A stretch of 34,193 nt of DNA from a virus: positions 1-34,193 of IMG/VR virus record IMGVR_UViG_3300044614_000378; one strand, given 5' to 3'. Shown one piece after another: positions 1 through 34,193 of this stretch. The position numbers and the translations under genes were made by a program. The notes under the pieces are model-generated. The model worked only from the letters and a program-made list of their open reading frames with translations. It had not been told where the DNA came from and searched no databases. Every line of letters begins with the position of its first letter. Within the stretch, counting starts at the first letter, position 1.

Positions 1-381
1 CATACCACTAATGAGTGGGGGCAGTTGAGCTTTGAGCCTTATGAGTTCAATCCATTTGACCGGCATGAACTATTTGATGAGTACTGTATCAATGATATCT
101 ATGGTATCATACCTGAGTACCTATCATTTAGACAGGATTTCATGGATAAGTATCACTTACTTTTTAATGAAGAGGATGGAGATGAGGAGGATGATAATAA
201 ACCAATGACATCCGATGAGTCTAAGGCACAAGCTGAACAAAAGTCTGCTGTGAAATGGGGATGGGAGAGACTACTCTATTCTCTTTGTAATGAGGACTTG
301 ACTAAGTTTAAGCAAGTAACTGACCTACCTCTTGTACTTACCTTTAATATGCTGTCAATGAAAAAAGAGCTTAATCTATAA
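1..381 (+). CDS. Tail assembly chaperone-like protein, 3' part only (copy A)
   Basis: Open from the first base of the window to a TAA at 379-381, giving about 126 residues that match the C-terminal half of the complete gene at 29171-29902 with only about three substitutions that I can count (Q/E and E/D near the start, V/I near the end). The gene is cut by the window edge; an ATG at 25 is internal, not the start. It has the same acidic stretch (NEEDGDEEDD) followed by a Trp-rich helix region and ends in KKELNL. The role is inferred from the full-length copy. It converges on the minus-strand gene ending at 376, with the two 3' ends overlapping by 6 bases. Confidence 0.8.
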   Translation, partial: HTTNEWGQLSFEPYEFNPFDRHELFDEYCINDIYGIIPEYLSFRQDFMDKYHLLFNEEDGDEEDDNKPMTSDESKAQAEQKSAVKWGWERLLYSLCNEDLTKFKQVTDLPLVLTFNMLSMKKELNL

Positions 382-813
382 CATACCTCTGAATGATAGA
401 GGAGCTGAGAAATCTCCACCTATAGGCTCAAATGTATAAATGATAGAACGCTTATCACCTAATATATTTGCCACTTGTAATATAGGATACCTTTCAACCA
501 TCCATTCAGTATATTGAGAATATATTTCTGTTGTTATACCTTCTGAATCTAATCTCCTGGATAACTCTGCACAGAAGTCATAAGGTGTTATGTAGATAGT
601 TCCATTATTAAGAAACCCAAAATAATACATTGCAATAATCTGTATCTCAAGTTCACCTAATGCAGGGATTTTAGCATTGATACGCACTGAGTCATACATA
701 GCTCCTGTATCAATAGCACCATCCTCAGATATTATCTGCTGCAAGATGCGTTGTATCTTTCTCCTTGTAGGATACTTGACATTGAATATACCATTATTTG
801 CGTAGCGTGCCAT
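376..813 (-). CDS. Conserved phage protein, possible virion or joining protein (copy A)
   Basis: A 145-residue protein starting MARYANNGIF and rich in alternating helix and strand. Its homologue in copy B (29892-30338, 148 residues) is conserved at the N-terminus and across the segment around DTGAMYDSVRINAK, then varies near residues 70-85 and at the extreme C-terminus. The segment 'DTG-x-x-YDSV ... YYFGFLNNG' loosely recalls HK97 gp10-like joining proteins, but I cannot confirm this. It is the last gene of the fibre block, starting on the base where its upstream neighbour ends, so it is presumably a late gene. The function is unknown and the joining-protein idea is weak. Confidence 0.6.
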   Translation of the reverse strand: MARYANNGIFNVKYPTRRKIQRILQQIISEDGAIDTGAMYDSVRINAKIPALGELEIQIIAMYYFGFLNNGTIYITPYDFCAELSRRLDSEGITTEIYSQYTEWMVERYPILQVANILGDKRSIIYTFEPIGGDFSAPLSFRGML

Positions 814-1052
814 TATTCAAAGGGTTTTGACCATTCAGGTGTTTCCATTAATTCTAAGCATTCAGCATGAGTTAATATCTGTAAAGGAACTATTGTACCA
901 TCTGTTATAAAAGTAGGTGTTTGATCCCACTTTAAAACAAATTTAGAATTATCCAATGACTTTCTAATTGTGCTTGACGTTGTTTCACCTACTTGAGTGA
1001 AATCTACTTTGGATAGGTCATTAATATCTATTATTGAATAAGTATCTGTCAT
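813..1052 (-). CDS. Small variable protein paired with the fibre gene (copy A)
   Basis: A 79-residue acidic protein (starts MTDTYSIIDIND, ends WSKPFE). It lies directly downstream of the candidate receptor-binding gene and upstream of the conserved 145-residue gene. The corresponding slot in copy B (30338-30565) holds a 75-residue protein with no recognisable similarity, so this small gene is exchanged together with the large fibre gene. Known tail-fibre loci often pair a fibre with a small cognate chaperone or attachment protein. That role is an inference from position and co-variation only. Confidence 0.55.
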   Translation of the reverse strand: MTDTYSIIDINDLSKVDFTQVGETTSSTIRKSLDNSKFVLKWDQTPTFITDGTIVPLQILTHAECLELMETPEWSKPFE

Positions 1053-1061
1053 ATAAATTAA

Positions 1062-2072
1062 TTAAGGTACATCAGTTGTTCTGTCAGTAATTTCCATGTT
1101 TACAGAAGTTCCATTAACTCCACCACTTCCGTTATCAATTAATGTCCAATTTGTGCTGAATGTATCTCCATCTCCCATTCTCCACCAATGATTAGGTGTT
1201 AACGAACTTAAATTTGAAGGATTTCCAGCATTGTATATTGTTGAAATATTTGCACTTTGATCTGTATTCCACATTGCTATCTCATCAAGTCTTCCAGAAA
1301 AATACCAATCATTTACATTTGATAATTTACCTATTGTAACCACTCTATTTGAGGAAAGAATACCTGTACTTGATGCAGTTGTTTGACCGTTCAAAACTCC
1401 ATCAACATACATTTTAAGACCATTTGTTCCAGTAGTACCGTTATAAGTACATAATATATGATGCCAATTGTTATCATCTAATATATTAGCTGTTGATTGT
1501 ACTGTATTCACTGTTCCATTAGTATTCCATACAAAGAAATAAAGCCTACGTAAACCCGCAGAAGAACCCCTCCAAACAACACCCCATGATCTTACACTTG
1601 TATCATCTTTTGATATTATTGAATTTAAACTACCCGTGTCCGTTGTTTTCATCCAAAACGAAATAGATATAGCAGAAGTAAAATCTATATTGCCAGTTGT
1701 TATTCCCTCATCAACCCCGTCAAAGGTCATTGAATATTGATTGTATGCAATGGGAGTAACTGTATTACTATCTGCATTGGCACTTCCAATTCCATTTGTA
1801 GCTGTCACAGTACACTTAATTGATTGACCTACATCTGCTGTCACAAGGACATAGGTTGAGTTAGTTGCACTTGCAATGTTAGAGCCATTACGCTTCCATT
1901 GATATGCAAAGGTTATAGTAGGTGTGCCTGTCCATGTACCTGTTGAGCAGCTTACTGTCTGACCTTCCTGTGCTGTTCCTGTTATAGCAGGAGCAACAGT
2001 GTTGACAGGAGAAACCCCTCCACTTACTTCCCAAGCTGTGCGTAAAAAAACGCTGTTACCATAGCCAATCAT
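1062..2072 (-). CDS. Candidate receptor-binding protein, Ig-like plus LamG-like domains (copy A)
   Basis: A 336-residue protein. Residues 1-10 (MIGYGNSVFL) match the copy B protein at 30565-31383 and are probably the virion-attachment end. Residues about 20-108 look like a bacterial Ig-like repeat (NTVAPAITGTAQEGQTV ... YQWKRNGSNI ... SIKCTVTATN). Residues about 113-300 look like a concanavalin/LamG-type jelly roll (FDGVDEGITTGNIDFT, ISFWMKTTD, WHHILCTYNGT, MYVDGVL, GRLDEIAMWN). Such domains bind surface glycans or proteins in many phage fibres. There is no signal peptide. The last base of the upstream 89-residue gene is the first base of this one (2072). Receptor binding is inferred from domains, position and extreme variability between copies. 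Confidence 0.7.
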   Translation of the reverse strand: MIGYGNSVFLRTAWEVSGGVSPVNTVAPAITGTAQEGQTVSCSTGTWTGTPTITFAYQWKRNGSNIASATNSTYVLVTADVGQSIKCTVTATNGIGSANADSNTVTPIAYNQYSMTFDGVDEGITTGNIDFTSAISISFWMKTTDTGSLNSIISKDDTSVRSWGVVWRGSSAGLRRLYFFVWNTNGTVNTVQSTANILDDNNWHHILCTYNGTTGTNGLKMYVDGVLNGQTTASSTGILSSNRVVTIGKLSNVNDWYFSGRLDEIAMWNTDQSANISTIYNAGNPSNLSSLTPNHWWRMGDGDTFSTNWTLIDNGSGGVNGTSVNMEITDRTTDVP

Positions 2073-2341
2073 TATGCAAGTATTAGCAATGCACTTCCAG
2101 ATGTTAACTTAACTCCACTGAATTGTTGAGCCGCTGTAGCTCTGATGATAGTGCCTGCTTTCACAGCTGTTGCCGGTGCAGCAATATAAGTTGACTTAAC
2201 ATCTACACCTGCTATCTTGATAAGATTGAATACAGTATCCTCAAGGACTACAATAGCATTGACATTTACAGTTTTCTCTGTTGTATTGTTAAGTACAAAA
2301 GTTCCTTTCTTAGCTATTAAGATTTCATTATCTGTTGCCAT
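2072..2341 (-). CDS. Small conserved beta-rich virion-associated protein (copy A)
   Basis: An 89-residue protein starting MATDNEILIAKKGTFVL, predicted mostly beta strand with many Thr and Val residues. The copy B homologue (31380-31646, 88 residues) is clearly the same family, with scattered substitutions. It lies between the fibre protein at 2344-3003 and the receptor-binding candidate. This context suggests a small fibre, decoration or attachment protein. I do not recognise a named family. Confidence 0.6.
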   Translation of the reverse strand: MATDNEILIAKKGTFVLNNTTEKTVNVNAIVVLEDTVFNLIKIAGVDVKSTYIAAPATAVKAGTIIRATAAQQFSGVKLTSGSALLILA

Positions 2342-2343
2342 TT

Positions 2344-3003
2344 TTAATATGTTTTATTTAAAGTGAATATTTCCGAGTATATAGAGTCCCCAGCGTTGGC
2401 AGTACCCCATTGAGCTGTGATTGATAGTGTGTTGCTTATGGTTGTATCAAAGGTAGTGGTGTTCTCAGTACTAAAGTTAGTGCCCTCAAAGTTGTTGGAT
2501 GCATTCTTTGTGTACATGAAAGCACCTCCTGCAGCTATTGATGCTACACCAGCTGCTCCTATAGCTCTCACAGTGAAGTATATCTCTAATTTCCAATGCT
2601 TGGTAGTTGTTCCTGCCATTGTGATTGCTCCTGTTGTTGCCAATACAACACTGCCACTTTTTATCCTTATAGTTAAGGTATGATTGTTGACAGCTGAGAT
2701 ATGGCCTGTTAGTATAGCATGGAAGCTATCACCTACATTGAACCCATCAGCAGGGATACTTAAACTACCTAAGCCGCCATCAAGTAGAGAGGTCTCAGTA
2801 GTTGTGTTGGTGACAGGTGTGCTTGTTGCTGTCTGAGTGTACAAGTTATTCAATGATGCAGCAGCTCTCATCAACTCAAGGCCTGTGATAGAGTATGTGT
2901 TGTATCCAAAGCCACTCAAAACACTTACCTCAAGTAAATCTGTAGGATCAAGGTCTGACCCCTTGGGAGTCATCTGAGATATTTTCTGTCTATTGATAGC
3001 CAT
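2344..3003 (-). CDS. Tail fibre-like protein with conserved N-terminus (copy A)
   Basis: A 219-residue protein. The first roughly 45 residues (MAINRQKISQMTPKG ... LDPTDLLEVSV ... SITG-x-EL) are nearly the same as in copy B (31659-32408). After that the two proteins are unrelated: this copy has a Thr/Ser/Ala-rich beta domain (LTIRIKSGSVVLAT, WKLEIYFTVRAIG, SITAQWGTANAGD). A constant N-terminal anchor with an exchangeable C-terminal module is the usual design of phage fibres. The start codon is set by the repeated TACAATATAGGT-ATG motif directly upstream; the stop of the preceding gene lies only 18 bases away. Confidence 0.7.
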   Translation of the reverse strand: MAINRQKISQMTPKGSDLDPTDLLEVSVLSGFGYNTYSITGLELMRAAASLNNLYTQTATSTPVTNTTTETSLLDGGLGSLSIPADGFNVGDSFHAILTGHISAVNNHTLTIRIKSGSVVLATTGAITMAGTTTKHWKLEIYFTVRAIGAAGVASIAAGGAFMYTKNASNNFEGTNFSTENTTTFDTTISNTLSITAQWGTANAGDSIYSEIFTLNKTY

Positions 3004-3015
3004 ACCTATATTGTA
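3004..3015 (-). promoter_or_regulatory. Repeated late-gene motif TACAATATAGGT abutting ATG
   Basis: On the minus strand the 12-mer TACAATATAGGT ends directly on the ATG at 3003-3001. The same string precedes the ATGs at 10306, 12587, 26006 and 32408, and with a final C the ATG at 28603. TACAAT would fit a -10 element placed so that transcription starts at or beside the ATG. No shared -35 or -33 box is visible. It could alternatively act as a translation-initiation element. Confidence 0.55.
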
Positions 3016-3021
3016 ATTAAC

Positions 3022-3468
3022 TTATGATTCTGTTATAATAGGGACTTGGCAATCTGTCCAATTACTCATGTCAACATCTAAGGTCATGACCCACCCTGCT
3101 GCATAGTCTAACACTTGATTATTCAATGGCACTATGGCAGGTTGTCCTAATACATCAAAGCTATAGTCATCACTGAAAGTAAAATAGTTCACTAAGTCAA
3201 CTAATATCTGATGACAGTCTGAGAGTATCACAGTGATATTAGCTCTATCCTTTTGTATGATGTCCAGGCAGGTTATCTCTAAGCTCATTGTATTAGTGTT
3301 CTCAGTTGCTATAGCTGTGATAGGTGCTATAAACACAAGAGGATATTTCTCATCCTTTGTCGCAAAGTTAGGTAACTGCTCCACGAAGTCACTACCTACT
3401 TTTTTTACCTGTAGATGTGCGTTATAGAATGCCTCTATCTTATTGATTAATGCTTGATAACTTGTCAT
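3022..3468 (-). CDS. Tail structural or tail-completion protein (copy A)
   Basis: A 148-residue protein (MTSYQALINKIEAFYNAHLQ ...). The copy B homologue at 32427-32873 has the same length and differs at about nine residues, all conservative, so it is under clear protein-level constraint. Its position directly after the tape measure (4-base ATGA overlap), its length and its mixed alpha/beta make-up fit a tail terminator or completion protein. I do not see a diagnostic motif, so the role is inference from order. Confidence 0.6.
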   Translation of the reverse strand: MTSYQALINKIEAFYNAHLQVKKVGSDFVEQLPNFATKDEKYPLVFIAPITAIATENTNTMSLEITCLDIIQKDRANITVILSDCHQILVDLVNYFTFSDDYSFDVLGQPAIVPLNNQVLDYAAGWVMTLDVDMSNWTDCQVPIITES

Positions 3469-6035
3469 AGTTCTGCGTTCTTTTGTATCTTATTAATTTT
3501 GTTCTGTACGTTGGTCATCTCAGTCTCACTCACTATAGCATTGACTGTGATAGTCTGACCTCCTCCCTCTTGGTTCGGGTTGCCTACATTATTGAGTTGG
3601 TTACCTTGACCGAATAGACTAACTGATGGAGTGGCCATGCCTCCTGTTGTATTACCTCCACCTGTGAAACTATTAGTGTCTGCAGTTGGAGCATTACCTC
3701 CACCCTCAAAGGATGTGCTTGCTATTGTTGCTAAACTTGTAGCTGTTGATATTACTGAGCCAGCTATTGCAGCTGCCATAGCAAAACCTCCATCAAACTT
3801 AGGATACTGAGCAAGGATTGATGTAATGGCTTGAGCTCCATTGATAACAGCCATTGCTAACTGCATTTTTTTCTGTTGCTCAAATTGTTGCTTAAGTATT
3901 TTCTCCTCTTCCTTACTTCCTTGTTGTACTCCTTTAAGTTTCTTTTTTGTGTTAATGTCTTGTATTGATGCAATGGCTCCTGCTGCTGTTGTAGCAAGTT
4001 GAAATCCAGCCTCAATATTTGCATTAAGTTTTTCTCTTGCCTTATCATCTATCTCAACCAACTTAGCCGCTTTAGTCTCTTCTGCTACTATTTCAGCTTG
4101 ACGATATTTTTCTTTTATGGCAGCTATCTCTGACTCACTCAAGTCTTTTGCTGCAAGTTCAGCAGTTCTTTGAGCATCAAGTGTATCTAATGTAGTTTGA
4201 AGAAATGCCTCATTTGCTGCAATCTCTTCCTCCTTAGTACCTTTAAATCTTTCAAGTTCAAAGGCTTCCTTAGATAATTTAGTCTCTGCTGTAAGTTGTG
4301 CAGCTGCTAAAATCTTTTGTTGATTCTCAATCTTTTTTACTGTGATTTGGTCATCAATTTCTTTTAACTTTTTAGCAGTCTCATCCTCAAGCAATGCTCT
4401 CTCCTCTGAGCCTACCTCAAGTGAGTCCATCTTTATCTTTGCCTCTGCTTCAAGTAGTTCCTTTTGTGCCTCGAATTTAGCAATATCATCTGCTGCATTG
4501 AGTTCTTTTCTTTTCAACCTTGCAATCAACTCCTCATTCTCTGCCTTTTCTCTCTCCTCAGCATTCTTATCTCTTGCTTTCTTAAGGTCATTATCTATCT
4601 TAGCAAGAGCTGCCTTCTGATCAACTTCTTTTTTATAGATTTTAGCGAGGTTATCAGATAGATATTTTCTCTCAGCTTCAAGTTGTGTTATGCGTAATTC
4701 TCTAAGCTCTTGCTCTGACTTACCTGCATTCTCTGCCTCTTGCAAAGCTACCTCATTCTTTTTGCGTAGGTCAGCAAGTGCCTCAGAATATTTATTCTTT
4801 ACCTCTTTATTAGTAGTACTTACACTTGTTGTGGTAGCCTTAGCTGCTGCTGCATTCCCTTTGTTAGTTATCTCTAACTCCTGTCTCTTAAAGTCCTGGA
4901 TAATCAAGTTCTTTAACTGTTGAGCCTTAGCAAGTGCAGTGCTATCACCTAACTGTTGAGCCTCTTTAATCTGCTGCTCTACCTTAGCAAGTGCCTCCTT
5001 CTGTTGGATGTCAAGCATTGCCTTAGCACGCTCAGACTCTCCCTTGATTTGCTTGGCCTGTAGTAACTCAATCTGCTTATCTAAGCTAACATTGAGATTC
5101 CTTATAGCGTTAATCTTGTTTATCTCATTCTGTACTTGTTGATTAGCCAAGTCTGCTTGAGTTTTAGTCAAGTCAGCTAATCTCTTCTTATCCTCATCTG
5201 TAAGTTCCTTCTTTAAGTTTAATGAGTCAATCTCAGCTTGATTGATAGCCATGTCACCCTCTATCTGTTCCCTCTTAAGGTCAAAGATGCTCTGACTTGT
5301 ATCTATCTGGATTCCTAACTTCTCCTCAATAGCAGCTATCTCCTCATCGCTTAAGTCCTTAGTAAGGTTATATAGTTCCTGCCTTGCTTGACTCTCTGCC
5401 TTAAGGCTCTCTCTATTTTTCTCACTTGCCTCTTTAACTGCCTCAGCATTTTCCTCTGCTGCATTATCTGTTAAACCCATCCAATCAGTCAGGTCCTTAA
5501 AGCCTTGTATCACTGCATTGATAGGTATCATGATTGCCTCTAAGATAGCATCAAGTACTCCTATTTTTTTTAAGAATATACCAATAGCTGCCACTATAGC
5601 AGTGATGACTGCCACTAATAAAAAGATAGGATTCATTAAGATGGTTGCTCCAAGTTTTACGAATGCTCCACCGACTGTGGATAGAGTACCCATGAACCCT
5701 TTGAAGCCCTTTGCTAAGTCTCCAGGATTGAGCTTTCCCATTACATTGCTAAAAACTTGAGCCTTCTGCTGTGCCTCCTCAAAGTCTAAGCTCATTAATG
5801 AGTCCTTAATACCTCCAATAGAATTACTCACCTGCTCAAATTTAGAGCCTGATGCAAATACATTCACTGCATCATTAGCATCCTTAAGTTGGTCTTTAAG
5901 CTCACCTGCTCTTGCTGAGAGTTGTGCTATTTGTTCGGGGTCAGTGGCATCTGCTATAGCTCCTTTAAGTTCTCTAAGCTCTGCCTTGATAGCACCTATC
6001 CCGGTTATCTTTAATGGTATCTCTACTTCATTCAT
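3465..6035 (-). CDS. Tape measure protein
   Basis: At 856 residues this is the second longest protein in the window. Residues about 1-110 are helical. A hydrophobic stretch at about 130-165 (LGATILMNPIFLLVAVITAIVA) is the membrane-type segment usual in tape measures. Residues about 200-680 are a very long Lys/Glu/Ala coiled coil. Near 710-770 there is a second hydrophobic Ala/Ile-rich segment, and the end is Gly/Asn/Thr-rich. It sets tail length during assembly; by the family rule of about 0.15 nm per residue the tail would be near 130 nm (inference). It overlaps the next gene by ATGA and follows the 925-residue tail protein with one base between them. Its middle and C-terminal half is repeated at 32870-34193. 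Confidence 0.92.
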   Translation of the reverse strand: MNEVEIPLKITGIGAIKAELRELKGAIADATDPEQIAQLSARAGELKDQLKDANDAVNVFASGSKFEQVSNSIGGIKDSLMSLDFEEAQQKAQVFSNVMGKLNPGDLAKGFKGFMGTLSTVGGAFVKLGATILMNPIFLLVAVITAIVAAIGIFLKKIGVLDAILEAIMIPINAVIQGFKDLTDWMGLTDNAAEENAEAVKEASEKNRESLKAESQARQELYNLTKDLSDEEIAAIEEKLGIQIDTSQSIFDLKREQIEGDMAINQAEIDSLNLKKELTDEDKKRLADLTKTQADLANQQVQNEINKINAIRNLNVSLDKQIELLQAKQIKGESERAKAMLDIQQKEALAKVEQQIKEAQQLGDSTALAKAQQLKNLIIQDFKRQELEITNKGNAAAAKATTTSVSTTNKEVKNKYSEALADLRKKNEVALQEAENAGKSEQELRELRITQLEAERKYLSDNLAKIYKKEVDQKAALAKIDNDLKKARDKNAEEREKAENEELIARLKRKELNAADDIAKFEAQKELLEAEAKIKMDSLEVGSEERALLEDETAKKLKEIDDQITVKKIENQQKILAAAQLTAETKLSKEAFELERFKGTKEEEIAANEAFLQTTLDTLDAQRTAELAAKDLSESEIAAIKEKYRQAEIVAEETKAAKLVEIDDKAREKLNANIEAGFQLATTAAGAIASIQDINTKKKLKGVQQGSKEEEKILKQQFEQQKKMQLAMAVINGAQAITSILAQYPKFDGGFAMAAAIAGSVISTATSLATIASTSFEGGGNAPTADTNSFTGGGNTTGGMATPSVSLFGQGNQLNNVGNPNQEGGGQTITVNAIVSETEMTNVQNKINKIQKNAEL
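4662..4788. repeat. 127-bp exact repeat, left copy (inside tape measure gene)
   Basis: Identical base for base to 34067-34193, the last 127 bases of the window. The base just before it differs (G at 4661, A at 34066). A 127-base exact terminal overlap equals a common maximum k-mer in de Bruijn assembly, so it marks where the B version rejoins the shared map. It is unlikely to be a biological repeat. Confidence 0.9.
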
Positions 6036-26679: not shown

Positions 26680-27612
26680 TTAGTCGAAACAAACGTTATA
26701 TAAAACAATCTCTGCAGGGTTAACATAATGGAAACCTACTTTCATATTAGCACGAGTTCTCAAATAAGGCTCAGCAACTGAATCAGATAAGTTAACTGCT
26801 TTCAATGCTTTGTCATCTCCTTCTGCATCAAATGCATAGATAAGGTTATTTCTCAAAGTCAACAAGATAGTGTTATCTGGCATACCTTCACACACAACTA
26901 CATTGATACCTAAGAATGTTAAACCTAATGGAGTAGTAACATAAGTCAAAGTGTTACCTTGTGCAGCAGCAAGCTCATAAGCATTAGCTACATTAGTAGA
27001 TACATAAAATCTTAAGTCTGTTTTTCTTCTGCTAATAGTTGAAGGAGCAGCAGCAAGTACAGCACTCAATTGGTCAAGTACATTTGATGTATCAATAACA
27101 CCTGCATACAATCCATTTACAGCCTCATCTCCACAAAGTCCTTTCAAGTATCCATCACAAAGACCTAATAATGCATCCTCAGATAATACATCTCCCTGCC
27201 ATCTCAATAACTCGATATCTTGACCGATAGTCATTGCCATCTCATTCCAATAGTATGACATAAAAGATGCAACAGTGAAATCACCATTAGATCCTTTTGC
27301 CATTTGCAAAGCTAAGAATGACTGCTCTAAGTCGAACTGACATAATTGAGCCATAGCTGACAAAGGACATACATCAATATCAACTGCATCTAATGAATCA
27401 TTAGGAGCAGAGAAGTTACAAGTAGATGCTTGTAAGATGTTACCAAAAGTTACATTAGCTAACTTAGTCTTAGACTTGATGCCTGGTAAAGAGCGAAAGT
27501 TAGATGCGATATCCTCTGATTGAAGATACGCTTTGGAGTAGAACTCCTCTGGGTTGGCACACAATAATGCGTTAGTTTCAACCTCTAAATTAAATTTTAA
27601 ATTACGGTTCAT
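26680..27612 (-). CDS. Major capsid protein
   Basis: A 310-residue protein directly after the protease-scaffold gene. The N-terminal arm (about 1-60, FYSKAYLQSEDIASNFRSLPGIKSK) is helical and extended. The body includes FTVASFMSYYWNEMAMTIGQDIELLRWQGD and TDLRFYVSTNVANAYELAAAQG, then ending strands (NLIYAFDAEGDDKALKAVNLSDSV), consistent with an HK97-type fold in length and order. The unusually many Cys residues are noted. It has its own 3' hairpin. The call rests on order, size and pattern. Confidence 0.8.
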   Translation of the reverse strand: MNRNLKFNLEVETNALLCANPEEFYSKAYLQSEDIASNFRSLPGIKSKTKLANVTFGNILQASTCNFSAPNDSLDAVDIDVCPLSAMAQLCQFDLEQSFLALQMAKGSNGDFTVASFMSYYWNEMAMTIGQDIELLRWQGDVLSEDALLGLCDGYLKGLCGDEAVNGLYAGVIDTSNVLDQLSAVLAAAPSTISRRKTDLRFYVSTNVANAYELAAAQGNTLTYVTTPLGLTFLGINVVVCEGMPDNTILLTLRNNLIYAFDAEGDDKALKAVNLSDSVAEPYLRTRANMKVGFHYVNPAEIVLYNVCFD

Positions 27613-29196: not shown

Positions 29197-29902
29197 GATT
29201 GATGTCCTGCAGTTTAAAGAGATTAGAGAGTTATATTCTATTGAGGAGGTATTTGCCAGAGAGATAGAGATACTCTCAGCTCTTGCAGGAGTTAGCTCAG
29301 ATGAGCTTGAGGACTTAGATGTAAGTGAGGTGAGTGCTATGCTCAAAGATATTACATTCATTAACTCTGAGCCATCTAAAAACTACAAGAGAGATATTGA
29401 ACAGTGGAAGGTCAAGCCATTAGCTAAGCTGACCTGTGGGGAGTTCATTGACTTAGAGTATTTCTTTGCTAATGACTACATCAAGCACCTTTGCCATATA
29501 GCAGCTATCATGTACAGGCAACATACCACTAATGAGTGGGGTGAGTTAAGCTTTGAGCCTTATGACTTCAATCCATTTGACAGGCATGAACTATTTGATG
29601 AGTACTGCATTAATGATATCTATGGTATCATACCTGAGTACCTATCATTTAGACAAGATTTCATGGATAAGTATCACTTACTTTTTAATGAAGAGGATGG
29701 AGATGAAGAGGATGATAATAAACCAATGACATCCGATGAGTCTAAGGCACAAGCTGAACAAAAGTCTGCTGTAAAGTGGGGATGGGAGAGACTACTCTAC
29801 TCACTTTGTAATGAGGATTTGACTAAGTTTAAGCAAGTCACTGACCTGCCTCTTATCCTTACCTTTAATATGCTGTCAATGAAAAAAGAGCTTAATCTGT
29901 AA
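29171..29902 (+). CDS. Tail assembly chaperone candidate, second ORF (complete)
   Basis: A 243-residue protein. The N-terminus (LPKSWSEIDVLQFKEIRELYSIEEVFAREIEILSALAGV) has the pattern of phage tail chaperones. The C-terminal part has an acidic loop (EEDGDEEDDNKPMTSDES) and a Trp-containing helix (KSAVKWGWERLLYSLC). Frame 2 is open upstream for roughly 35 bases before the ATG, so a +1 or -2 ribosomal shift from the first ORF remains possible. It converges on the fibre block and overlaps the last minus-strand gene by 11 bases. Its 3' half is repeated at 1-381. Confidence 0.6.
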   Translation: MNLPKSWSEIDVLQFKEIRELYSIEEVFAREIEILSALAGVSSDELEDLDVSEVSAMLKDITFINSEPSKNYKRDIEQWKVKPLAKLTCGEFIDLEYFFANDYIKHLCHIAAIMYRQHTTNEWGELSFEPYDFNPFDRHELFDEYCINDIYGIIPEYLSFRQDFMDKYHLLFNEEDGDEEDDNKPMTSDESKAQAEQKSAVKWGWERLLYSLCNEDLTKFKQVTDLPLILTFNMLSMKKELNL

Positions 29903-30338
29903 AATCTAATTTTCCAATAAAGTCTCCTCCAATAGGTTCAAATGTGTAGATAATAGATTTCTTTTCACCAAGTATCTGAGCCACTTGCAAAATAGGATAA
30001 CGCTGTGTCATCCACTCAGTGTATTGAGAATAGATTTCTGCTGTTATTCCAGAACTATCCATCCTTTCAGTTAACTGAGCACAAAACTCATAAGGAGGTA
30101 TTACTCCACCATTCCAAAGATTTGCACCATTATTCAAAAATCCAAAGTAATACATTGCAATAATCTGTATCTCAAGTTCACCAAGTGCAGGTATTTTTGC
30201 ATTGATACGCACTGAGTCATATAATGCACCCGTATCAATAGCACCTGACTCTGATATTAACCTTTGTAATATCACTTGTATCTTTCTCCTTGTAGGATAC
30301 TTGACATTGAATATACCATTATTTGCGTAGCGTGCCAT
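29892..30338 (-). CDS. Conserved phage protein, possible virion or joining protein (copy B)
   Basis: The 148-residue counterpart of 376-813. Relative to copy A it has extra residues in a loop (NNGANLWNGGVIPPYEF) and a different C-terminal end (GGDFIGKLDFTD). Changes are concentrated there while the first 60 residues are nearly constant. It is the last gene of the fibre block in this version. The function is unknown. Confidence 0.6.
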   Translation of the reverse strand: MARYANNGIFNVKYPTRRKIQVILQRLISESGAIDTGALYDSVRINAKIPALGELEIQIIAMYYFGFLNNGANLWNGGVIPPYEFCAQLTERMDSSGITAEIYSQYTEWMTQRYPILQVAQILGEKKSIIYTFEPIGGDFIGKLDFTD

Positions 30339-30565
30339 TATTCAGCTGGTGGAAATGGTGGTGAAGGCTTAGGCTCGAACGGACTCAAAGGAATATCTAA
30401 TAAATAAGCATATTCAGTTGGTGCAATATCTGCCTCATCCTGCTCACTTAAAAATAAAAAATATACATCATTAATATCTTGAACAAAATTAAAGAATGTA
30501 TCTGCGTCAAAGAACACTCCTTGTAGTTCTTCTGCTGTTTGGTTTGTTACTATTCGTCCTTCCAT
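30338..30565 (-). CDS. Small variable protein paired with the fibre gene (copy B)
   Basis: A 75-residue acidic protein (MEGRIVTNQTAEELQGVFFD ...) with a Pro-rich end (PFEPKPSPPFPPAE). It occupies the same slot as the 79-residue gene at 813-1052 but shows no similarity to it. It starts on the base where the fibre gene ends. Cognate partner of this version's receptor-binding candidate, by co-variation only. Confidence 0.5.
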   Translation of the reverse strand: MEGRIVTNQTAEELQGVFFDADTFFNFVQDINDVYFLFLSEQDEADIAPTEYAYLLDIPLSPFEPKPSPPFPPAE

Positions 30566-31383
30566 TATACTTGTCTTGATAAAGTTGTTTGATATGCTTG
30601 AACTGCTGTGTAAAAGTTAGCCGCATCCGTATCTGTTAAACCATCTCCTATTGAAGCAAAGGCACATTGTTTTGTTGAATAAGATGTTATTACTCCAAGT
30701 GTTGTATTATTTGAAGCTCCAATAAATAAATTGCCATTTGGTAATATATTAACATTTGCACTTGTATTTGTTCCTAACGTGCTATTATTTTTATATAATT
30801 TATGGCTTGTACTTGTTGTTCGCGTTGCTAAATAAAAACCAGTTGAAGAAGCTATTGAAGCAGATATCCTTTGATTGTAATTATAATGGTCGGATACTTC
30901 AACTCCTGAACCTGTACCTAATGCCATTGTTGGGTTATCTCCAGCTTGATATATTGCAATTTCTCTTTGAACTGCTGAAACATTAGTTCTTGAATAGAAA
31001 CTTAAATGAGTTGAATTTAATGTTAATGCAGAACTTGGATTCAACGCAGTATCAGCATAAGTTGCTCCATTAGGTGTCATTCCCGTACTTGAATGTGTCC
31101 AACCTGTAGCAAAAGTCAAATTATGAGTTCCGGGCGTTTTAAGGTTGACAGCATGACTTGAAGCCGTACCCCCTACTATTGGGTATATTGCTTTGAACTT
31201 TGTCCATATACCATCAGCTTTCATTCCTATTACAAGGTCATTAATAGCACCTTGTTGCGTAGGGTTAGTGATACCTGCTGCTGTTATAAATGCCTGAGCA
31301 TCTGGATCAACTCCACCTCCTGATGCAGCCCTTGCTAATATTCCATGTGTTGCTAAAAACATACTATTACCGTAGCCTATCAT
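30565..31383 (-). CDS. Candidate receptor-binding protein, alternative module (copy B)
   Basis: A 272-residue protein sharing only the first 10-11 residues (MIGYGNSMFL) with copy A. The rest is different: a short helical linker (DAQAFITAAGITNPTQQGAINDLVIGMKADGIW) of a type seen in Bacteroidetes phage fibres, then a Ser/Thr/Asn-rich beta domain that may be a lectin-like jelly roll (NSTHLSFYSRTNV, GNLFIGASNN, CAFASIGDGLTDTDAANFYTAVQAY). It overlaps the 88-residue gene by ATGA. Receptor-binding function is inferred from slot and variability. Confidence 0.65.
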   Translation of the reverse strand: MIGYGNSMFLATHGILARAASGGGVDPDAQAFITAAGITNPTQQGAINDLVIGMKADGIWTKFKAIYPIVGGTASSHAVNLKTPGTHNLTFATGWTHSSTGMTPNGATYADTALNPSSALTLNSTHLSFYSRTNVSAVQREIAIYQAGDNPTMALGTGSGVEVSDHYNYNQRISASIASSTGFYLATRTTSTSHKLYKNNSTLGTNTSANVNILPNGNLFIGASNNTTLGVITSYSTKQCAFASIGDGLTDTDAANFYTAVQAYQTTLSRQV

Positions 31384-31646
31384 AATACAATAGTAACTGA
31401 TCCACTTGTTAACTTAACACCACTAAACTTCTGAGCCTTAGTAGGTCTTATGATAGCACCTGCCTTAACTGCTGTTCCTGTAGCTGCTATGTATGTTGAC
31501 TTAACATCAACTGCTGCTATCTTAATAGAGTTGAACACTGTATCCTCAAGGACTACAATAGCATCAAAGTTACCTGTGAACTCAGTTGTGTTATTCAAGA
31601 TATAAGTACCTTGACCTGCTATTAAAATTTCATTATCCGTTGCCAT
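31380..31646 (-). CDS. Small conserved beta-rich virion-associated protein (copy B)
   Basis: An 88-residue homologue of 2072-2341 with scattered substitutions (for example KKGTFVL to GQGTYIL, and the last seven residues). Conservation on both sides of the exchanged fibre gene supports a shared structural role. Confidence 0.6.
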   Translation of the reverse strand: MATDNEILIAGQGTYILNNTTEFTGNFDAIVVLEDTVFNSIKIAAVDVKSTYIAATGTAVKAGAIIRPTKAQKFSGVKLTSGSVTIVL

Positions 31647-31658
31647 TTTATTTATTTA

Positions 31659-32408
31659 TTATGTTGTTAAATCTCCTGCTAATACCCACTCATTAGTATC
31701 TATCTTGATAAGAGTAGCCATACCATACTGAGCAGCTATCTTAGTCTTACCTCCACTTGATCGTAGTGTTACTCCTGCTGTTGGAGCTATTGTTGTCTGA
31801 CCTGTGCCATACTGAACTACAAGTATCTGAGTCCCTATAGGGAATGCCACTCCTGTGTTAGTTGGTATCCTTAAGTCATTAGCACTACTGTTGTTAGTAT
31901 TAATCAACTTATACAAGTCAGTTAACACTATGTTGTTAAGTGTAGATGTTTTCTCTACTATAGTAACCTCTCTTGGTGCAAGAGTACAGTTCTCATCTGG
32001 ATAAGTATATACTCTGTTAGCTGTGTTGCTTGAGGTTTTTAATGTAGTATAGTAGTCATTGTCATTCTTATACTTCAGATCACCATTGCTGTCAGCATAG
32101 AGAGCAGTGCTCTGACCTGTTGCTGTAGCATCTGCATTTTGATGCTTAAGATGTAGATGTCCACCTCCATTAGTTCCTTCAATATATACTGACCTGGCAC
32201 TAATCTTATTATTGTCTAAGTCAACATCTTGAGTAGCTCCAACATAAGGAACATATCCACTAAGGCTGTTCAATACTAACTCATCCCCTGTGATAGACCG
32301 TGTCTCATATCCTGAGCCTGTTTGAACACTTACCTCAAGTAAGTCAGTTGGATCAAGGTCTGCTCCCTTGGGAGTCATCTGAGATATTTTCTGTCTATTG
32401 ATAGCCAT
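31659..32408 (-). CDS. Tail fibre-like protein, alternative C-terminal module (copy B)
   Basis: A 249-residue protein. Residues 1-45 match copy A (MAINRQKISQMTPKG). Residues about 50-110 carry a repeat type common in Bacteroidetes phage fibres (SGYVPYVGATQDVDLDNNKI ... GHLHLKHQNADATATG ... DSNGDLKYKND). The end is a beta domain with a Gly-rich turn (TLRSSGGKTKIAAQYGMATLIKID) like carboxy-terminal fibre heads. It starts after the repeated motif. Confidence 0.7.
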   Translation of the reverse strand: MAINRQKISQMTPKGADLDPTDLLEVSVQTGSGYETRSITGDELVLNSLSGYVPYVGATQDVDLDNNKISARSVYIEGTNGGGHLHLKHQNADATATGQSTALYADSNGDLKYKNDNDYYTTLKTSSNTANRVYTYPDENCTLAPREVTIVEKTSTLNNIVLTDLYKLINTNNSSANDLRIPTNTGVAFPIGTQILVVQYGTGQTTIAPTAGVTLRSSGGKTKIAAQYGMATLIKIDTNEWVLAGDLTT

Positions 32409-32420
32409 ACCTATATTGTA
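32409..32420 (-). promoter_or_regulatory. Repeated late-gene motif TACAATATAGGT abutting ATG (copy B)
   Basis: This is the copy B equivalent of 3004-3015, with identical motif and identical flank (GTTAAT). The constancy of the motif at the edge of an exchanged gene shows it is retained across versions. Confidence 0.55.
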
Positions 32421-32426
32421 ATTAAC

Positions 32427-32873
32427 TTATGATTCTGTTATAATAGGAACTTGACAATCTGTCCAATTACTCATGTCAACATCTAAGGTCATAACCCACC
32501 CTGCTGCATAGTCAAGTATCTGATTATTCAATGGCACTATGGAAGGAGTACCTAAGATATCAAAGCTATAGTCATCGCTAAATGTAAAGTAGTTCACTAA
32601 GTCAACTAATATTTGATGGCAGTCTGAGAGTATCACTGTGATGTTAGCTCTATCCTTTTGGATAATGTCTAAGCAAGTGATCTCTAAGCTCAATGTGTTA
32701 GTGTTTTGAGTTGCTATAGCTGTGATAGGTGCTATGAACACAATAGGATACTTCTCATCCTTTGTGGCAAAGTTAGGCATCTGCTCTGCAAAGTCACTAC
32801 CTACTTTTTTAACTTGTAGATGTGCGTTATAGAATGCCTCTATCTTGTTGATTAATGCTTGATAACTTGTCAT
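32427..32873 (-). CDS. Tail structural or tail-completion protein (copy B)
   Basis: A 148-residue homologue of 3022-3468, about nine mostly conservative substitutions apart (for example V/A at 29 and L/M at 32). It overlaps the tape measure stop by ATGA as in copy A. Confidence 0.6.
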   Translation of the reverse strand: MTSYQALINKIEAFYNAHLQVKKVGSDFAEQMPNFATKDEKYPIVFIAPITAIATQNTNTLSLEITCLDIIQKDRANITVILSDCHQILVDLVNYFTFSDDYSFDILGTPSIVPLNNQILDYAAGWVMTLDVDMSNWTDCQVPIITES

Positions 32874-34193
32874 AGTTCTGCGTTCTTTTGTATCTTATTT
32901 ACTTTGTTCTGTACGTTGGTCATCTCAGTCTCACTCACTATAGCATTGACTGTGATAGTCTGACCTCCTCCCTCTTGGTTCGGGTTGCCTACATTATTGA
33001 GTTGGTTACCTTGACCGAATAGGCTAACTGATGGAGTAGCCATGCCTCCTGTTGTATTACCTCCACCTGTGAAACTATTGGTATCTGCAGTTGGAGCATT
33101 GCCTCCTCCCTCAAAGGATGTACTTGCAATAGTTGCTAAACTTGTTGCCGTTGCTATCACTGAGCCAGCAATAGCTGCTGCCGTAGCAAAGCCACCGTCA
33201 AACTTAGGCATCTGTGCAAGTATTGAAACAATGGCTTGAGCTCCATTGATAACAGCCATTGCCAACTGCATTTTTTTCTGTTGCTCAAATTGTTGCTTGA
33301 GTATCTTCTCCTCTTCTTTACTTCCTTGCTGTACTCCTTTAAGTTTCTTTTTTGTGTTGATATCTTGTATTGATGCAATGGCTCCTGCTGCTGTTGTAGC
33401 AAGTTGAAATCCAGCCTCAATATTTGCATTAAGTTTCTCTCTTGCCTTATCATCTATCTCAACCAACTTAGCCGCTTTTGCTTCTGCTGCTAATATTTCA
33501 GCTTGGTCATATTTCTCGTTAATGGCTGCTATTTGTTCCTTACTCAAGTCTTTTGCTTTAAGCTCTGCCTCTCTTTGAGTATCCAATGTATCTAATGTAG
33601 TTTTAAGAAATGCCTCATTTGCTGCAATCTCTTCCTCCTTAGTACCTTTAAATCTTTCAAGTTCAAAGGCTTCCTTAGATAATTTAGTCTCTGCTGTAAG
33701 TTGTGCAGCTGCTAAAATCTTTTGTTGATTCTCAATCTTTTTAGCTGTGATTTGGTCATCAATTTCTTTTAACTTTTTAGCAGTCTCATCCTCAAGCAAT
33801 CCTCTCTCCTCTGAGCCTACCTCAAGTGAGTCCATCTTTATCTTTGCCTCTGCTTCAAGTAGTTCCTTTTGTGCCTCGAATTTAGCAATGTCATCCTTAG
33901 CATTGAGTTCTTTTCTTTTCAACCTTGCAATTAACTCCTCATTCTCTGCCTTCTCTATATCCGCTGCATTCTTATCTCTTGCTTTCTTAAGGTCATTGTC
34001 AATCTTTGCAAGTGCTGCCTTTTGATCAACTTCCTTTTTATAGATTTTAGCAAGGTTATCAAACAAATATTTTCTCTCAGCTTCAAGTTGTGTTATGCGT
34101 AATTCTCTAAGCTCTTGCTCTGACTTACCTGCATTCTCTGCCTCTTGCAAAGCTACCTCATTCTTTTTGCGTAGGTCAGCAAGTGCCTCAGAA
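32870..34193 (-). CDS. Tape measure protein, C-terminal part (copy B, cut by window end)
   Basis: Open to the window edge. It corresponds to the C-terminal half of the 856-residue protein at 3465-6035 and is highly similar, with clusters of changes in the coiled coil. The first residue listed in a 426-residue reading (TTG at 34150) is internal. The 5' part continues at 4789 onward in the circular map. Coiled coil, Ala-rich hydrophobic segment and Gly/Asn-rich end are all as in copy A. Confidence 0.85.
   Translation of the reverse strand, partial: SEALADLRKKNEVALQEAENAGKSEQELRELRITQLEAERKYLFDNLAKIYKKEVDQKAALAKIDNDLKKARDKNAADIEKAENEELIARLKRKELNAKDDIAKFEAQKELLEAEAKIKMDSLEVGSEERGLLEDETAKKLKEIDDQITAKKIENQQKILAAAQLTAETKLSKEAFELERFKGTKEEEIAANEAFLKTTLDTLDTQREAELKAKDLSKEQIAAINEKYDQAEILAAEAKAAKLVEIDDKAREKLNANIEAGFQLATTAAGAIASIQDINTKKKLKGVQQGSKEEEKILKQQFEQQKKMQLAMAVINGAQAIVSILAQMPKFDGGFATAAAIAGSVIATATSLATIASTSFEGGGNAPTADTNSFTGGGNTTGGMATPSVSLFGQGNQLNNVGNPNQEGGGQTITVNAIVSETEMTNVQNKVNKIQKNAEL
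34067..34193. repeat. 127-bp exact repeat, right copy (window end)
   Basis: Identical to 4662-4788. It ends at the last base of the window. Joining it to its partner closes a circle of 29,405 bp (4789-34193). See the entry for the left copy. Confidence 0.9.

Follow-up and report, generated by a model that had tools for sequence, protein, structure and literature searches.

The stretch of DNA analysed here (the window) is the entire IMG/VR virus record IMGVR_UViG_3300044614_000378, which is 34,193 bp long and classed as linear. The two ends of the record are homologous in the same orientation up to both tips (positions 1-4788 versus 29522-34193), and each end carries one version of the same locus, called X (left) and Y (right) below. 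In version X, a 336-aa adhesin (1062-2072, minus strand, as are all genes given in this paragraph) consists of a MIGYGNS anchor, an Ig-like linker (residues ~20-109) and a LamG tip (~119-336), designated tip D. Its counterpart in version Y, a 272-aa adhesin (30565-31383), has the MIGYGNS anchor but lacks the Ig part and ends in a tip with a predicted ConA/LamG-like lectin fold, designated tip A. Directly downstream lie two small partner genes, which pair one-to-one with tip D and tip A, respectively: a 79-aa gene of small family D in X (813-1052) and a 75-aa gene of small family A, MEGRIVT subtype, in Y (30338-30565). The downstream border of this two-gene cassette is formed by a 145-aa gene in X (376-813) and its 148-aa counterpart in Y (29892-30338), with the cassette edge at the ATG start codon of this gene. 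Upstream of the cassette are a conserved 89-aa gene (X, 2072-2341) or its 88-aa counterpart (Y, 31380-31646), followed by a fibre gene that holds the second swapped module, encoding 219 aa with a type A C-terminus in X (2344-3003) and 249 aa with a type B C-terminus in Y (31659-32408); the latter has PHROG minor tail and tail fibre matches. A conserved 148-aa gene is located upstream of the fibre in both versions (X, 3022-3468; Y, 32427-32873).

We compared the two versions by nucleotide alignment and protein comparison. Nucleotide identity between X and Y is 91-99% in the plus-strand gene, falls to 71-89% in the 145/148-aa gene (79% in protein), drops to chance level in the 79/75-aa and adhesin genes and recovers to 68-76% in the 89/88-aa gene (77% in protein); similarity is lost again in the fibre C-terminus, beyond which nucleotide identity is 78-99%. 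Protein identity is 94% in the conserved 148-aa gene upstream of the fibre and 98% in the C-terminal half of a 243-aa gene. The 79-aa and 75-aa proteins did not match each other (E 4.5), the alignment of the 336-aa and 272-aa adhesins was limited to the first ~45 residues (42%, E 2e-4), and that of the two fibres to the N-terminal ~95 residues (50%). In global alignments, the cassette reached 46.1% identity versus 41.7-45.1% in codon shuffles, and the fibre C-terminus 44.9% versus 39.4-45.5% in codon-shuffled controls. As judged from these alignments, neither the cassette nor the fibre C-terminus rises more than marginally above chance, in contrast to the anchors and flanks, whose homology is clear. 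Both this profile and the shared N-terminal anchors had been described in the initial annotation of the window, and our comparison agrees with it on both points.

Two strains joined in one assembled record

Positions 34067-34193 are exactly identical to positions 4662-4788 (a 127-mer), and the last mismatch before this shared stretch is at position 4661. Through the 127-mer the right end of the record closes on position 4789, so that positions 4789-34193 form a closed circle of 29,405 bp that contains the 272-aa version (strain Y). Positions 1-4661 at the left end are an arm of strain X with the 336-aa LamG version: an independent 10-kb contig (L008) matches window positions 1-4814 without a single difference, diverges from 4815 and, past window position 1, is only ~93% like the window from 29521 leftwards. 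Because of the exact 127-mer and the divergence of L008, we conclude that the circle of strain Y and the arm of strain X were spliced by the assembler at the shared stretch (4662-4788), the second copy of which is the right record end (34067-34193). Ten near-full-length relatives were read whole; seven of these are 29.0-30.9 kb long, have the same gene order with differing start phases, and carry direct end overlaps of 55-205 bp, which in three of them are exactly 127 bp, as in this record. Short direct end overlaps are what a de Bruijn assembler leaves on unrolling a circle. Another IMG/VR record (G005, 36,745 bp) has an imperfect self-overlap of 6.5 kb (96%) in another phase of the circle and is probably likewise an unrolled or chimeric circle. 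Moreover, the 145-aa gene is single-copy in all 20 relatives with a match, and the two versions are therefore allelic, each belonging to one of two strains that were assembled together, rather than two loci of one virus.

A real duplication, by which one genome would encode two alternative adhesin sets, would likewise put both copies on one record, and tandem tip genes do occur in a few other phages (L223 and L183). However, the exact end overlap and the different continuation of strain X on both sides in L008 indicate that the two copies do not lie on one molecule, and the single 145-aa gene in 20 of 20 matched relatives and the similar imperfect self-overlap of G005 also argue against it. 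We rejected a duplicated locus in one phage genome, which has hardly any chance of being correct. The coexisting phages suggested by the initial annotation are upheld as two strains that co-occur in one assembly, the second copy being strain variation plus assembler chimerism. The record also cautions that viral contigs whose ends overlap imperfectly are first to be taken for strain chimeras, ahead of any inference of a duplicated or dual-receptor genome.

For the major capsid protein (window 26680-27612), no relative was found in 50,697 phage records or in a bacterial/archaeal genome collection, and more than 320 relatives were found in IMG/VR; the phage group is uncultivated. The best matches of the terminase are Parabacteroides, Bacteroides and Flavobacterium phages (31-35%), so that a host among the Bacteroidota can only be guessed at.

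Architecture and exchange of the adhesin tips

Relatives of the locus were gathered via the 89-aa gene (59 found) and the major capsid protein. The adhesin slot in these relatives encodes proteins of 108 to ~470 aa with a common layout, namely a short N-terminal anchor, an optional Ig-like linker and a C-terminal tip, and among ~30 distinct relatives this one slot holds tips of four kinds (A-D). The anchor starts with MIGYGNS-x-FL or, with tip B, MISALNF, and three tip kinds occur behind MIGYGNS anchors. Tip D of the 336-aa protein is a Laminin_G_3 domain (Pfam, 8e-21), tip C matches the GH54 catalytic domain in Pfam, and tip B has an Lcl_C match in Pfam below the curated cut-off. The Ig part of the 336-aa protein has PHROG virion structural/tail matches and a match to the solved tail protein 9c2d, and homology to proteins with this PHROG annotation suggests that the adhesin is probably borne on the virion. 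Tip A was seen on either of the two common anchors, in proteins that have or lack the Ig part, and alongside three fibre types and three downstream alleles. Relative to the tip and its partner, the anchor, the linker, the fibre and the flanks all reassort. On alignment, close relatives join a conserved N-terminus to non-homologous C-terminal domains. The fibre C-terminus, which falls into three clusters among the relatives, is a second, independently exchanged module. The comparison supports the two separate swapped modules behind fixed anchors proposed by the initial annotation. The non-homologous whole-domain swaps seen here are unlike the pattern of a diversity-generating retroelement, for which a template repeat, a reverse transcriptase and adenine-specific changes would be expected.

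In three relatives (L013, L014 and L031), the adhesin consists of the anchor and the Ig part alone (108-109 aa), and tip and partner are missing together, with two different junctions. Since tip-less lineages exist, the adhesin may be accessory rather than essential, so that the main receptor determinant might just as well be the fibre C-terminus. The two phages may differ mainly in what they bind, as suggested in the initial annotation, although some lineages do without both tip and partner.

The initial annotation had described the 272-aa protein as a beta protein unrelated to the LamG adhesin. Tip A and tip D indeed have no detectable sequence relation (hhalign probability 0.2%); tip A matched no Pfam family, and among the weak matches of 65 members there was no LamG or ConA family. 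AlphaFold (AF2) modelling of the 272-aa protein with a 65-row alignment yielded a pLDDT of 90.7 and a pTM of 0.87, versus a pLDDT of 35 from the single sequence. Further Foldseek analysis of tip A against the PDB returned lectin-type domains (best E 3e-6, TMq up to 0.55), and many viral and phage LamG-like proteins were also matched (~1e-8, TMq ~0.6). Tip A is predicted from these models to be a ConA/LamG-like two-sheet jelly-roll lectin sandwich with the same fold as the LamG tip, and an unrelated fold for the 272-aa protein was rejected. PDB matches to the clostridial neurotoxin binding domain, trans-sialidase and pentraxin were taken as a shared lectin-type fold only. Among LamG/ConA-like lectins (Pfam PF13385 and relatives), tip D is a LamG_3 member, and tip A is placed by structure comparison only. 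Variation in tip A is concentrated at residues 136-240 (mean column entropy 2.0-2.8 bits), compared with 0.3-1.1 bits in the first 105 and last 30 residues of the protein, and residues 136-240 would suit a variable binding face. The initial annotation had held that the same fold and the same binding surface in both large proteins would contradict its reading; the predicted fold is the same, but the sequences are unrelated and the probable binding part is hypervariable.

Pairing of tip kinds with small partner genes

The small genes of 74-88 aa next to the tips were clustered independently of the tips and fell into four families. In 31 distinct pairs, the four tip kinds correspond one-to-one with the four small families with zero mismatch (probability under random dealing 2e-13, a figure that ignores relatedness). 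The tip kinds are mutually unrelated in sequence, and so are the small families. A forward scan gave 163 A-A, 18 C-C, 16 B-B and 11 D-D pairings and one weak mismatch (L058), and in a reverse scan that started from the small genes in all viral contigs, 214 of 218 judgeable cases had the matching tip upstream; these counts are loci and not independent events, because some contigs were retrieved by several queries. The four exceptions come from three contigs in which single proteins carry both A and C tips. Tip and small gene are within 100 bp of each other in 208 of the 218 loci. As in known tip-chaperone modules, the small gene is directly downstream of the tip gene and is co-inherited with it, and the exchanged unit comprises both genes. 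The absence of similarity between the 79-aa and 75-aa genes noted in the initial annotation is therefore correct, but it does not reflect mere divergence, each gene being a kind-specific tip partner.

There is usually one partner per tip kind rather than one per tip. Proteins with two A tips are accompanied by one A partner in 24 loci versus 3 loci otherwise, and DDDD proteins by one partner in all five loci. Two of the three contigs with two tip kinds contain both partners in nested order (tipC-tipA, smallA-smallC; tipA-tipC, smallC-smallA), and the third, L418, with a mixed A+C protein, contains the C partner only. In L437, a GroEL-like chaperonin gene, recognised by eye, starts at position 3503 directly after a two-tip, two-partner cassette. 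Tips A and C are encoded by separate tandem genes in L183 and L223; each tandem tip is followed by its own partner in L223, and in L183 a partner was undetected after tip C.

In seven loci that seemed to have lost the partner in the forward scan, an ORF of ~200 aa is inserted between the tip and its partner, and the partner is kept. Five of the insertions, located between tip A and the partner, were inspected directly (L177:1825-2463, L223:2101-2787, L264:5005-5667, L285:5414-6022 and L197:4811-5452), and those of L195 and L196 were assigned by match to L197. The inserted ORFs resemble GIY-YIG- or HNH-like phage homing endonucleases by eye; they had no Pfam match above cut-off, and this identity was not confirmed.

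The pairing extends to a cultured phage, as the four-LamG protein SWZG_00005 of cyanophage S-SKS1 is directly followed by a family D small protein, SWZG_00004; tblastn searches of cultured phages with small A and small C found nothing. Nineteen D-type loci, mostly with distant LamG domains, have no D-type partner, indicating that LamG domains in general need no partner. The small proteins are acidic (pI 4.1-4.4), without a strong membrane or hydrophobic stretch in any of the four families, and MKL-type partners are less variable than their tips. Within tip A, the divergence of partner and tip was related with r 0.30, versus 0.28 for the flanking 89-aa gene, and the idea that tip A and small A co-evolve at a finer level was dropped, the relation being no stronger than with this gene. 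No match to the small families was found in Pfam, PHROGs, NCBIfam or the PDB, including any known chaperone family in these libraries, so the small genes were not filed as Tfa or DUF4376. A search for remote homology among the four families yielded nothing beyond a PPPFE tail at the C-terminus, common to some pairs. This PPPFE-like tail is common to families A, C and D, the bodies of which are unrelated, and is also present in contigs of other context.

Proposed role of the cassette and comparison with known systems

Taking these results together, we think it probable, with real room for doubt, that the locus represents a tip and cognate chaperone cassette, akin to fibre-tip/Tfa exchange, in two coexisting strains of an uncultivated tailed phage whose genome of ~29.4 kb assembles as a circle. 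The cassette combines the C-terminal lectin-like tip of a short adhesin with the small acidic gene directly downstream, and the two are exchanged together behind a conserved N-terminal anchor, which may or may not carry an Ig linker. The tip would bind a host surface glycan, and the small protein would be, by analogy with Tfa, a kind-specific folding or assembly chaperone or a transient cap for the tip. The broader idea of portable lectin tips, each kind with a tiny dedicated chaperone acting in trans and common to unrelated phages, is put forward tentatively, with chances slightly below even; on this view a single partner gene would serve all tips of its kind, and a protein bearing two tip kinds would come with a partner for each.

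The main rivals of this reading are that the small protein is a virion subunit and that tip and partner are merely linked. As a subunit, the small protein would cap the tip and aid receptor binding, like gp38 on some T-even long tail fibres; the strict kind-specific pairing, the joint loss with the tip and an acidic protein without a membrane stretch speak for it. However, one gene serves multi-tip proteins (AA in 24 of 27 loci, DDDD in 5 of 5), which mildly argues against a stoichiometric subunit, and MKL-type partners vary less than their tips, unlike what is expected of receptor-facing adhesins; we regard the subunit as unlikely. Somewhat less likely still is that tip and small gene move together through adjacency in the lack of internal homology, with no functional pairing. 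The two genes are indeed directly adjacent in most loci, and both the tip kinds and the small families are mutually unrelated in sequence, but adjacency does not readily explain why two of the three two-kind contigs have both partners in a nested order that leaves one pair non-adjacent, why the partner is kept behind an inserted ORF, or why tip and partner are lost together. Moreover, the pairing persists across unrelated phages including S-SKS1, unlike the association with the flanking genes on either side, which reassort.

As a further alternative, the small protein could be an exclusion or immunity factor specific for the receptor, acting against superinfection or against loss of virions on lysed debris, in which case a match to the tip would again be required. 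Exclusion proteins known to block receptors are exported or membrane-bound, whereas the four small families have no strong hydrophobic segment, and each partner goes with one kind of tip despite strong variation among such tips in the probable binding region. This role is very improbable, and the chaperone cassette remains our preferred reading.

Several elements of the exchange are already known, namely strain-level exchange of recognition genes, domain shuffling on anchors and co-transfer of fibre and chaperone. The fibre-tip/chaperone modules of Mu (Tfa), Pam3 (gp24/gp25) and the Alteromonas phages V22, A5 and P24 likewise place a dedicated small gene after the tip gene, and such modules are co-inherited and common to distant phages, as here. 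Pam3 gp24/gp25 is a precedent for a tip/chaperone pair, with a gp25 of 162 aa (PMC9608196); the fibre-chaperone modules of Alteromonas phages are common to distant phages, and their chaperones (V22 gp27, 195 aa; A5 gp9, 239 aa) belong to DUF4376 (PMC10579305). In contrast to these known chaperones, the partners here form four mutually unrelated families of 74-88 aa with no library match, and they accompany lectin-type tips on a short anchor. For the metaviromic islands of marine phages, tail fibre genes and carbohydrate-binding or lectin-like genes have been reported to be replaced at strain level between phages that coexist, as here, and the part of that account considered here describes variable genes without defining tip kinds or kind-specific partners (PMC3909814). 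Domain shuffling in phage receptor-binding proteins combines near-identical N-terminal anchors with non-homologous C-terminal receptor domains (PMC10684548; for Klebsiella, PMC8262889), whereas here a second gene, matched to the kind of tip, is part of the exchanged unit. Neither the kind-specific rule nor the four families of small partners turned up in the searched libraries or literature.

Across hundreds of contigs, the partner gene can be predicted from the kind of tip and vice versa, which constitutes a testable rule. If the partners are chaperones, they would be unusually small dedicated ones, which would explain why lectin-type tips are exchanged as two genes, and expression of such tips for study would require them.
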